Assembly (NCBI RefSeq): GCF_014297575.1
Contig: NZ_CP060412.1
Location: forward strand, 930,001 to 994,000
Length of the DNA: 64,000 nucleotides
From: Dyella telluris
GTDB taxonomy: Bacteria; Pseudomonadota; Gammaproteobacteria; Xanthomonadales; Rhodanobacteraceae
Direction: 5' to 3'
A program made the position numbers and the translations under genes. The notes below the pieces were generated by a model. The model saw only the letters and a program-made list of their open reading frames with translations, made no database searches and had not been told where the DNA came from. This document shows positions 2,257-4,531 of the stretch, one piece after another; position 1 is the stretch's first letter, and every line of letters starts with the position of its first letter.

Positions 2257-3354
2257 TCAGCAACCCGACGCAACGCGCACGGTGCGTTGGGTTGGCTGTC
2301 GCGCGGCGCGGCGCTCACGCACGGCCTGCGCCAGCCGATCGAGCACGGCCACCGATGCCTCCCAGTCGATGCAGCCATCGGTGATGCTCTGGCCGTAGCG
2401 CAGCGGCTGCCCAGGCACCAGATCCTGCCGCCCGCCAACGAGATGGCTTTCCACCATCACGCCGACGATGCGTCGCTCGCCGGCAGCCAGCTGCGTGGCA
2501 ATGTCGTCGATCACGCGCAGCTGGTTCTCCGGCTGCTTGAGGCTGTTGGCATGGCTGGCGTCGATCATCACGCGGGCCGCCTGTCCGCTGTTCGCAATGG
2601 CGACGCAGGCGGCGTCCACGCTGGCCGCGTCGTAATTGGGCGTCTTGCCGCCACGCAGGATCACGTGGCAATCCTCGTTGCCGGTGGTCGCGGCAATCGC
2701 GGTCTGGCCGTCCTTGGTGACCGCCATGAAATGATGCGGCTGCGACGCGGCGCTGACCGCGTCCACCGCGATTTTCACGTTGCCGTCGGTGCCGTTCTTG
2801 AAGCCCACCGGGCACGACAACCCCGATGCCAGCTCGCGGTGCACTTGGCTCTCGGTGGTGCGCGCACCAATGGCGCCCCATGCCACCAGGTCGGCGATGT
2901 ACTGCGGCGTGATCATGTCGAGGAATTCGCAACCGGCCGGCATGCCAAGCTCGGCGATGTCGCGCAGCAGGCCGCGCGCTTGTCGCAGGCCCTTGTCGAT
3001 GCGGAAGCTGCCGTCCAGATCGGGATCGTTGATGAGCCCCTTCCAGCCCACCGTGGTCCGCGGCTTTTCGAAGTACACCCGCATCACGATCTCCAGCTCG
3101 CCCGCGAGTTGCTGTCGCTGCGCCACGAGGCGCTCGGCGTATTCCAGCGCGGCTTTCGTGTCGTGGATGGAGCACGGGCCGATCACGACGGCAAGGCGGT
3201 CGTCCTTGCCCGCAAGAATGCGGTGCAGTGCCCGGCGTGAAGCGCTGACGGTATGTGCCGCATGCACGCTCGCAGCGCAATCGCGCATCACCTCCGCCGG
3301 CGGGCTGAGCGGCGTGATGGAACGGATGCGCAAATCATCGGTGGAAGGGTTCAC
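2257..3354 (-). CDS. aroG: 3-deoxy-7-phosphoheptulonate synthase (class I DAHP synthase)
   Basis: The 365-residue enzyme condenses phosphoenolpyruvate and erythrose-4-phosphate in the first step of aromatic amino acid synthesis. Family motifs are present in order: VVIGPCSIHD, RVYFEKPRTTVGWKGL, DPDLDGSF, VGFKNGTDG and a C-terminal SITDGCIDW. The GTG start is preceded by AAGGAG at a good distance, and the extra seven codons to an upstream ATG are probably untranslated. The paralogue specificity (Phe-, Tyr- or Trp-sensitive) cannot be read safely. Upstream lie a leader ORF rich in Tyr, Phe and Trp codons and a perfect intrinsic terminator, which strongly suggests attenuation by aromatic amino acid supply. 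It converges with the dioxygenase-like gene, nine bases away. Confidence 0.93.
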   Translation of the reverse strand: MNPSTDDLRIRSITPLSPPAEVMRDCAASVHAAHTVSASRRALHRILAGKDDRLAVVIGPCSIHDTKAALEYAERLVAQRQQLAGELEIVMRVYFEKPRTTVGWKGLINDPDLDGSFRIDKGLRQARGLLRDIAELGMPAGCEFLDMITPQYIADLVAWGAIGARTTESQVHRELASGLSCPVGFKNGTDGNVKIAVDAVSAASQPHHFMAVTKDGQTAIAATTGNEDCHVILRGGKTPNYDAASVDAACVAIANSGQAARVMIDASHANSLKQPENQLRVIDDIATQLAAGERRIVGVMVESHLVGGRQDLVPGQPLRYGQSITDGCIDWEASVAVLDRLAQAVRERRAARQPTQRTVRVASGC

Positions 3355-3386
3355 GGTGTCTCCTTGGGGATCCACTCGCGGCCATG

Positions 3387-3420
3387 AAAAAGGCCGCCAG
3401 TGGTGGCTGGCGGCCTTTTT
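3387..3420 (-). terminator. attenuator terminator in front of the DAHP synthase gene
   Basis: A perfect 14-bp inverted repeat (arms AAAAAGGCCGCCAG and CTGGCGGCCTTTTT, six-base loop) ends in five U residues, 33 bases before the GTG of the synthase. It lies between the aromatic leader ORF and the gene. Its 5' arm contains CCGCCAGC, which can pair instead with GCTGGCGG inside the leader ORF, giving a candidate antiterminator. Confidence 0.88.
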
Positions 3421-3438
3421 GGGAATGGTGTCTTGTCG

Positions 3439-3522
3439 TCAGGACAATCGAGACCAACCCTCCGCCAGCGGCATCGGATAGCCGTAAAACCAAAAATACT
3501 GGCGGGCGGTGTGGGAGGTCAT
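3439..3522 (-). CDS. aromatic leader peptide of the DAHP synthase attenuator
   Basis: A 27-codon ORF whose codons 9-15 encode Y-F-W-F-Y-G-Y, six aromatic residues in seven, with a seventh (Trp) at codon 23. Tyr, Phe and Trp are all represented, matching the three end products that control DAHP synthase. Codons 6-8 carry CCGCCAG (segment 1), codons 18-21 carry CTGGCGG (segment 2), and the terminator arms supply segments 3 and 4. Segment 1 pairs with 2 over 7 bp and segment 2 with 3 over 8 bp. A ribosome stalled in the aromatic run would cover segment 1, free segment 2 to pair with 3, and let transcription continue. No Shine-Dalgarno sequence precedes the ATG. Confidence 0.85.
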   Translation of the reverse strand: MTSHTARQYFWFYGYPMPLAEGWSRLS

Positions 3523-3530
3523 GACGACAA

Positions 3531-3559
3531 GGAATAACACAGGCTTTTTGCGCATGCAA
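3531..3559 (-). promoter_or_regulatory. candidate promoter for the aromatic leader and DAHP synthase
   Basis: TTGCAT and TATTCC are separated by 17 bases and end eight bases before the leader ATG. If used, transcription would start two or three bases before the ATG, giving a nearly leaderless mRNA. That would fit the absence of a ribosome binding site. The -10 match is imperfect, so this is a proposal. Confidence 0.4.
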
Positions 3560-3607
3560 AGGGTGCATTTGAAACCAACGCGCTGCACGAACGGTACACT
3601 CGCCGCC

Positions 3608-4531
3608 ATGTCTTCCCCCTGGACCCTGCTGACCCGCCCTGCCCGCGAACCCATCCGACGCTGGGTACTGGGCGCGTTTCCGCGCGGTGGCGGCGGGCAC
3701 GTGGACTACGATCATCCGCCCGGCGACCCCGGGCTGTTCGGCGCGGACAGCGCCACGTGGCGCGTGCACGCGGACTTCCCCGGCATGCTCGCCGGCGGCC
3801 TGGCCGCACTGATGCTGCAGACCCTGCATCCGCTCGCGCTGGCCGGCGTGTGGGATCACTCCAACTTCCGCGACGATCTGGTCGGACGCCTGCGCCGCAC
3901 CACCTCGTTTGTCAGCGGCACCACGTATGCGCCCGTGGACCAGGCGCAGATGCTGATCGAGCGGGTGAAGCACATCCACGCGCAGGTAAAGGGTGTTGGC
4001 GAAGATGGACGGCCATACGCCGCGGATGATCCGGACCTGCTGACCTGGGTGCACGTCACCGAGGCTTACAGCTTCCTGCAGGGTTACCGCCGTTACAGCC
4101 ACATCACCCTGCCTGCGGGTGCGGCCGATCGTTACTACGACGAAGTGCGACGCGTGGCCGAAGCGCTCGGCGCCCGGGAGGTGCCGCGTTCGGAAGCACA
4201 GATCACGGCGTACTTCCGGCGCATGCGCCCCGAGCTGCACTTCACGGCCCGATCGCGTGAAGTACTCGATGTGCTGTATCGGGTACGACTCCCGGTGCCC
4301 GTAGCCGGCTTGTCGCGCGATGTGTTCCTGCAGGCCGGTGCAGCCCTGCTGCCGCCATGGGCAGATGCACTGCTGGAGCGCACGCCACTGCAACGCGCGC
4401 AGTCGCGACTGGCGGCGCGGGCACTCTGGTCGGTGGCACCGGTATTCCGCATGGCGCTGCACGATGGCATCGCCAGCCACGCCTGCGCGCGCGTCGGCGT
4501 GCCGGCGCAAACCCTGCTCCACTGGCGCTGA
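3608..4531 (+). CDS. oxygenase MpaB family protein (DUF2236)
   Basis: A 307-residue protein with the DUF2236 signature: an N-terminal helix with FPGMLAGGLAALMLQTLHP, then GVWDHSNF and RLRRTTSFVSGTTY, the heme-binding-type region shared with fungal MpaB and latex-clearing-protein relatives. Family members are predicted heme b oxygenases, and the substrate of this one is unknown. The ATG chosen gives a start typical of the family; the open frame extends 33 codons upstream, antisense to the aromatic leader. It diverges from the attenuator, so the two transcripts start within about 90 bases of each other. Confidence 0.82.
   Translation: MSSPWTLLTRPAREPIRRWVLGAFPRGGGGHVDYDHPPGDPGLFGADSATWRVHADFPGMLAGGLAALMLQTLHPLALAGVWDHSNFRDDLVGRLRRTTSFVSGTTYAPVDQAQMLIERVKHIHAQVKGVGEDGRPYAADDPDLLTWVHVTEAYSFLQGYRRYSHITLPAGAADRYYDEVRRVAEALGAREVPRSEAQITAYFRRMRPELHFTARSREVLDVLYRVRLPVPVAGLSRDVFLQAGAALLPPWADALLERTPLQRAQSRLAARALWSVAPVFRMALHDGIASHACARVGVPAQTLLHWR

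Follow-up and report, generated by a model that had tools for sequence, protein, structure and literature searches.

Discussions of how entry into the shikimate pathway is controlled usually centre on feedback inhibition and repressors, and the classical leader peptides trpL, pheL and pheM each sense one amino acid. In Dyella telluris a stretch of 64,000 nucleotides, here called the window, carries on its minus strand a gene for DAHP synthase, before which a short reading frame with codons for Phe, Tyr and Trp standing together is followed by a terminator. Does translation of this frame decide whether the gene is transcribed, and which of the three amino acids would then be sensed? From sequence comparison we consider it very likely that the locus is a ribosome-mediated transcription attenuator of the DAHP synthase gene, sensing aromatic amino acids, and the leader probably lets the cell make DAHP synthase mainly when Phe, Tyr or Trp is short. 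The kind of mechanism is already known, and the three-aromatic aroG leader is a further case of it; its interest lies in a conserved, testable control point at the pathway entry in three proteobacterial classes. The elements of the locus, in the direction of transcription, are:

3554..3559, minus strand: -35-like TTGCAT (TTTGCA at 3560-3555), by resemblance only, 17 nt before the -10 hexamer
3531..3539, minus strand: putative extended -10, TGT TATTCC (TGnTA motif), the hexamer ending 8 nt before the leader ATG
3522..3439, minus strand: leader peptide ORF of 27 codons plus TGA, MTSHTARQYFWFYGYPMPLAEGWSRLS, from sequence and conservation
3499..3505, minus strand: segment 1, CCGCCAG, codons 6-8, able to pair with segment 2 (exact in the window)
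3478..3498, minus strand: control codons 9-15, TAT TTT TGG TTT TAC GGC TAT (Y F W F Y G Y)
3462..3469, minus strand: segment 2, GCTGGCGG, putative 5' half of the antiterminator, by its pairing with segment 3
3406..3413, minus strand: segment 3, CCGCCAGC, 5' arm of the terminator and one base beyond, partner of segment 2 or 4
3387..3420, minus strand: intrinsic terminator AAAAAGGCCGCCAG-CCACCA-CTGGCGGCCTTTTT, 14 perfect pairs, arms 3420-3407 and 3400-3387
2257..3354, minus strand: type I DAHP synthase (aroG/aroFGH family), the presumed regulated gene, with GTG start and AAGGAG upstream

The DAHP synthase was recognised by TIGR00034 (E 3.6e-158) and PF00793 (E 3.2e-96). Its most likely start is the GTG at 3354, which AAGGAG precedes and which is preferred over the start of a longer ORF at 3375, so that 18 nt lie between leader ORF and terminator and 32 nt between terminator and GTG. 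The 27-codon ORF with six aromatic residues in codons 9-15 is present exactly as the original prediction had quoted it, and the perfect 14-bp intrinsic terminator placed after it was confirmed at 3420-3387 on the minus strand, with CCACCA as loop and the T-run inside the stem. Among all six-frame stop-to-stop segments of the window, the leader is the only one with at least six aromatics in eight codons, and five mononucleotide shuffles of the window gave 0 such segments each. A generic scan of 3200-3800, the rules of which asked for a near-consensus promoter and for T's after the stem, returned 0 promoters and 0 terminators; the terminator was missed because its T-run sits within the stem, and the proposal of a promoter therefore draws on conservation and not on a consensus score. 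At the -35-like site, TTTGC(A) recurs in many gammaproteobacterial relatives. A divergent gene on the plus strand (3509-4531, start probably near 3609) encodes an MPAB_Lcp_cat domain (PF09995, E 9.9e-66), and its upstream region overlaps the leader promoter.

In the mechanism proposed here, RNA polymerase would begin on the leader ATG or no more than a few bases away, after which a ribosome would load on the leaderless or nearly leaderless mRNA. Shortage of Phe-, Tyr- or Trp-tRNA would stall this ribosome on codons 9-15, where it would cover segment 1 or sit between segments 1 and 2, and segment 2, left free, would pair with the emerging segment 3, so that no terminator would form and aroG would be transcribed. 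With all three plentiful, the ribosome would reach the stop codon, pairing 2:3 would be prevented and the 3:4 terminator would end transcription, giving a terminated RNA of about 140 nt. With a usual ribosome footprint, the leading edge would just touch segment 2 once Tyr15 occupies the A site; a stall anywhere in codons 9-15 would thus free segment 2, and a lack of any one of the three amino acids could lead to antitermination.

Leader and terminator accompany aroG almost throughout the window's family. The window's family comprised 197 genomes, with an aroG match in 92 and none in 105 (E <= 0.001); of 93 matched places 90 were examined (G099, the G174 fragment and a weak G105 match were left out), and both elements were found at 89 of them. 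The sole exception, L113 in G136, has an upstream end (GGATCCCC, AAGGAG) that resembles the window's. In a second set, aroG homologues on 80 named contigs, the best-scoring part of at least 592 listed matches, were inspected, and 61 of these best-scoring 80 loci, from alpha-, beta- and gammaproteobacteria, carried leader and terminator. Among the 19 loci without them (L032, L054, L055, L060, L061, L063, L065, L067, L068, L069, L072, L073, L074 and L076-L081), 13 belong by title to Rhodocyclales-type bacteria, Methylotenera, Ferrovum, Pantoea or Ectothiorhodospiraceae, L067 offers 58 nt of upstream sequence only, and L072 has an aromatic ORF without a matched terminator. Aromatic run, terminator and segment 2 are kept in Dyella, Rhodanobacter and Xanthomonas as well as in beta- and alphaproteobacteria. 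According to the original prediction, close relatives that lacked the aromatic run or the alternative pairing would have spoken against it; both proved to be conserved there, and conservation far outside the window supports its reading of the leader as attenuation of the trp/phe type.

When 398 genomes of the phylum were searched with a covariance model of the leader (R1), 233 gave a match at E <= 0.01, in many cases via the terminator end only. The best 50 places of R1 (E <= 4.4e-8), among which are the window and relatives of the sequences used for training, comprise 48 before aroG homologues and two before pheS (L220, L222). Of 18 lower places inspected (17 in other genomes, one in the window's genome), L237 lies before aroG and L226 and L229, weaker matches, before pheA, while the other 15 are not before aroG and were treated as chance or lone terminators. 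The leaders of pheS and pheA are classical Phe attenuators, and their recovery by R1 therefore acts as a positive control. On a rapidly built aroG tree of 77 of the original 81 rows, 60 of them with and 17 without leader (SH-aLRT, no bootstrap), the leader label needs eight changes, against 15.5 in shuffles. The same tree joins the Xanthomonadales with alphaproteobacterial rows (SH-aLRT 99), for which horizontal transfer of leader and aroG was considered; an alpha-rooted tree fits descent too, so no such claim is made.

The aromatic residues of the leader are conserved as well. In 85 gammaproteobacterial leaders, aligned on a pattern of which the Trp and the second Tyr are fixed parts, the first Tyr position holds Tyr in 71 (TAT 37, TAC 34) and the first Phe position Phe in 78 (TTT 54, TTC 24); the second Tyr, required by the pattern, is written TAC in 52 and TAT in 33. 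Codons 2-5 differ in residue, the commonest occurring in 20-38 leaders. Conservation of the aromatic residues through synonymous changes counts against an incidental ORF. The view that a riboswitch, a T-box or a protein controls the terminator and that the aromatic ORF is incidental, although in principle any terminator-based leader could be so controlled, is further opposed, as far as a riboswitch or T-box is concerned, by the Rfam matches to the leader, among which no riboswitch or T-box appeared at gathering or relaxed thresholds, and we hold it to be scarcely credible. Neither the leader nor seven relatives gave a gathering-level match in Rfam 15; the best sub-threshold scores were 27.5 for Thr_leader (RF00506) and 19.8 for Phe_leader (RF01859), where both thresholds are 55 bits. 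The aroG-leader family thus appears to be unannotated in Rfam 15, and the leader alignment could become an RNA family absent from that release. Elsewhere in the window, a fluoride riboswitch aptamer (RF01734, 21226-21300, plus strand, 37.5 bits, above threshold) and a t44 RNA (RF00127, 50537-50652, plus strand, 66.2 bits) were recorded.

Codon choice in the leaders differs from that in the genes which follow them. For Phe, TTT:TTC is 77:21 in gammaproteobacterial leaders vs 16:202 in aroG of the same 40 loci, 114:38 vs 39:181 at 34 betaproteobacterial loci and 28:0 vs 6:93 at 17 alphaproteobacterial loci; for Tyr, TAT:TAC is 73:56 in whole gammaproteobacterial leaders vs 41:168 in aroG. In the best eight-codon stretch, Phe, Tyr and Trp occur together in 99/99 gamma-, 17/17 alpha- and 12/34 betaproteobacterial leaders, and the remaining betaproteobacterial stretches combine Phe with Tyr (21/34) or Phe with Trp (1/34). 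It is conceivable, if rather doubtful, that the attenuator tracks Phe and Tyr only and that the Trp codon is a passenger, in which case Trp limitation would have little effect on aroG: the run in those 21 betaproteobacterial leaders contains Phe and Tyr codons but lacks Trp, and in all groups Trp codons are fewer than Phe/Tyr codons. Yet the Trp codon stands within the run in every gamma- and alphaproteobacterial leader, and by geometry a stall at the window's Trp, which lies mid-run, would free segment 2 like the others. We prefer a leader that would respond to all three amino acids, whatever the presumed weight of each, and the natural variants with or without a Trp codon offer a means of learning how a single leader balances the three. 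Changes of frame in segment 2 were considered as proof of selection at the RNA level and set aside as weak; GGCGG is present in 143 of 150 leaders, in its usual frame in 138 and in another in five.

Pairing was examined in an RNA alignment of 76 leaders less than 90% alike (41 gamma-, 24 beta- and 11 alphaproteobacterial). The terminator is paired in 86.3% of cells. Compensatory changes in the arms, which had been proposed as a check, were found for the terminator, with double changes at four of 14 pairs (in 32 of the 76 sequences at one pair and in 11 at another) and 46 double-change cells against 14.5 in shuffles, a value reached by 0 of 500 shuffles. The five core pairs of the terminator never vary, partly due to selection on CCGCC...GGCGG, which the terminator filter demanded; segment 2 had no part in this selection. 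Without the core requirement, a terminator search over 170 upstream regions gave a best terminator with CCGCC as core in 141 and with a different core in two, and none in 27; the window's own is among the 27, missed because its T-run lies in the stem. In two variant leaders, L170 and L171, the terminator core is CCGCCC/GGGCGG, and the segment-2 site reads CTTGCGG and CTCGCGG, without GGCGG.

The complementarity of segment 2 to the 5' arm of the terminator, as originally described, is exact in the window, and GGCGG of segment 2 can pair with CCGCC of the arm in 73-75 of the 76 leaders at each of the five core pairs. In its eight-pair register, 2:3 is paired in 85.8% of cells, vs 18-52% when slid. 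This share is little above that of shuffles (84.7%), and the double changes, few here, amount to eight cells, a number reached by 135 of 500 shuffles, so that compensatory evidence does not extend to this pairing; 2:3 barely exceeds shuffles because the core hardly varies. At the position next to the core, the letters of segments 2, 3 and 4 are T/A/T in 29 of the 76 leaders and vary in concert in some lineages (C/G/C in five, T/G/C in three), and 27 of the 76 have C, A or G opposite the segment-3 A. Against dinucleotide shuffles the 2:3 duplex stands out (p <= 0.05) in 50/76 leaders, namely 23/41 gamma-, 23/24 beta- and 4/11 alphaproteobacterial ones.

Predicted folds agree with this arrangement. 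With a ribosome placed on the aromatic codons, 2:3 forms in 67/76 leaders (37/41 gamma-, 22/24 beta-, 8/11 alphaproteobacterial), and when the ribosome is moved to the stop codon, 73/76 form the terminator (39/41, 24/24 and 10/11). Alignment and modelling together thus point to an antiterminator 2:3 that excludes the terminator and that a stalled ribosome would free. When the stalled state is folded at full length, the most stable structure remains the terminator in 61/76 (31/41, 22/24 and 8/11), so antitermination must win kinetically.

The pairing of segments 1 and 2, which in attenuators of the leader-peptide type would serve to make an untranslated RNA terminate, fared less well. It is exact in the window, as had been claimed, but poorly conserved, with 63.2% of cells paired in the 76 leaders vs 58.1% for a slide of +3, and the 1:2 duplex reaches p <= 0.05 only in 11/41 gamma-, 3/24 beta- and 4/11 alphaproteobacterial leaders; as a conserved element, a 1:2 hairpin is supported in part only. 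When the RNA is folded up to segment 3 without a ribosome, segment 2 pairs with upstream sequence in 31/76 leaders and with segment 3 in 31/76. In the window it is segment 3 that is chosen, that is, the antiterminator forms in place of 1:2, and an untranslated leader, not clearly predicted to terminate, might therefore read through; this fold of the window's leader slightly reduces our confidence in the mechanism.

The least certain step is how completed translation of the leader would block 2:3. In the textbook trp leader a ribosome at the stop codon masks segment 2. Here GGCGG lies 22-28 nt from the stop codon in 37/41 gammaproteobacterial leaders, and in the window a ribosome at the stop codon would stand about 20 nt beyond segment 2 and would not cover it, so that direct masking is not obvious. 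The block would need refolding of 1:2 behind the ribosome, or a ribosome positioned between segments 2 and 3. A stem round the leader stop codon was considered as well and not retained, reaching p <= 0.05 in 4/41 gamma-, 0/24 beta- and 0/11 alphaproteobacterial leaders; in the window (TTGTC/GACAA, 3447-3433, minus strand) and in some gammaproteobacterial relatives it is seen, in the predicted fold it caps the 2:3 antiterminator, and its mean score in gammaproteobacteria is 10.8 for own halves vs 9.4 for swapped halves. Folding of the whole stretch between segments 2 and 3 is suggestive at the level of groups, with mean z against shuffles of -0.78 in gamma- (n=41), -1.09 in alpha- (n=11) and -0.07 in betaproteobacteria (n=24), means which come from related and hence not independent sequences. 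A clade alignment of this stretch was dropped, as its 3' half failed to line up.

Where transcription and translation begin bears on whether the leader has a 5' untranslated region at all. The proposed promoter had been said to end eight bases before the ATG, which holds when it is read as the extended -10 TGT TATTCC, and the transcription start in the window would then coincide with the ATG or lie no more than about 2 nt from it. A TGnTA extended -10 with its hexamer ending 6-10 nt before the start occurs at 99/99 gammaproteobacterial loci, compared with 8/1236 upstream 15-mers as background, the motif having been picked after inspection of the same sequences. TGnTA has been reported upstream of leaderless mRNAs in the available text on Bradyrhizobium japonicum (PMC4842269). 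At alphaproteobacterial loci a -10-like box lies 7-8 nt before the start in 12/17 and TGnTA is found in 1/17; at the 34 betaproteobacterial loci there is no TATA-type box within 5-14 nt of the start, and one lies at 25-47 nt in 23/34. The absence of a Shine-Dalgarno sequence, also noted originally, is general, with an SD-like motif at 0/99 gamma-, 0/17 alpha- and 1/34 betaproteobacterial leaders; being shared by betaproteobacteria, this absence alone does not show leaderlessness. The near-leaderless geometry that had been suggested is accordingly likely in gammaproteobacteria and plausible in alphaproteobacteria, probably applying to those 12 of 17 loci, and is not indicated in betaproteobacteria, as judged from promoter spacing. 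Such variants with or without a 5' UTR open a way to study attenuation on an mRNA that is nearly leaderless.

Since the promoter is conserved and the terminator perfect, a short transcript is to be expected, and the available parts of the work on rnTrpL of Sinorhizobium meliloti describe action in trans (PMC7298713). The leader could accordingly be mainly an independent small RNA or mRNA, with aroG transcribed through constant read-through or from a promoter of its own close to the terminator. We judge this highly improbable: the 32 nt from T-run to aroG start are too short for a usual downstream promoter, and nothing would keep the aromatic codons and segment 2 linked to aroG. Attenuation of aroG by the leader remains our preferred reading, and the predicted stalling and starvation response are discussed on that basis.

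In the window's genome R1 gave one strong match, the leader itself (6.9e-31), the next best being 0.0012. A second DAHP synthase, of type II, is encoded at G000:C1:1029680-1030981 on the minus strand (PF01474, E 2.0e-191). Simple scans of 300 nt upstream showed no terminator-like hairpin before this gene, before pheA (L251) or before the chorismate-binding loci L249 and L250, which are trpE-type by family only, and upstream of L172 and L251 only weak ORFs with two or three aromatics were seen, their starts having been chosen by length. If these simple scans hold, the pathway entry carries the genome's only aromatic attenuator of such kind.

With enterobacterial trpL, pheL and pheM the window's leader shares a short ORF with control codons, the choice between 2:3 and 3:4, and a terminator before a biosynthetic or synthetase gene; unlike them, it would read three aromatics at the common entry of the pathway. 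In ilvG and thr operon leaders, too, one peptide senses several end products of a shared pathway, a likeness that concerns a different pathway. Leaderless trpL/rnTrpL of S. meliloti, an attenuator RNA that starts at the leader AUG according to the available text (PMC7298713, PMC10117765), is similar in lacking an SD-like motif, the start at the AUG being only predicted for the window. As far as these sources go, rnTrpL controls trpE(G) via Trp codons and has in-trans effects in S. meliloti, whereas the window's leader precedes DAHP synthase. In Acholeplasma, the uORFC-13-1 motif upstream of aroF (PMC8632094) is likewise predicted to be a leader-peptide attenuator of a DAHP synthase gene; by its description in the available part of that paper it is set apart, being of Phe type and confined to Acholeplasma and environmental sequences. 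For E. coli and Shewanella, attenuation of aroF sensing Tyr-tRNA and control of aroH by termination have been proposed (PMC2659441), which likewise place DAHP synthase genes under attenuation or termination, but in the available text these proposals concern Tyr- or Trp-sensitive isozymes and include no pooled Phe/Tyr/Trp leader. Such a pooled aroG leader was not found in the available parts of PMC8632094, PMC2965389, PMC2873474, PMC7298713, PMC2659441, PMC4603805, PMC5688073, PMC3744752, PMC4833913, PMC10117765, PMC7494200 and PMC4842269; an earlier mention is possible, and the table of 82 short 5' UTRs of B. cenocepacia in PMC5688073 might include one.

A bolder reading, which we put forward as speculative and on balance unlikely in its entirety, would join these threads: a widespread, unnamed family of aroG leaders would pool Phe, Tyr and Trp in an OR-gate where the aromatic pathway begins; its gammaproteobacterial and probably many alphaproteobacterial forms would be leaderless; the terminated product of about 140 nt would be an abundant small mRNA or sRNA acting in trans like rhizobial rnTrpL; and the leader would replace separate trp and phe attenuators in the window's genome. 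A divergent group of aroG loci (L210, L213-L219, L223, L224 and L237), 60-63% identical, has leaders likewise rich in F, Y and W (e.g., FYFWFSVPGGRE) and terminator cores of the form CCGCCG...CGGCGG, with R1 E-values of 5e-6 to 3e-12.
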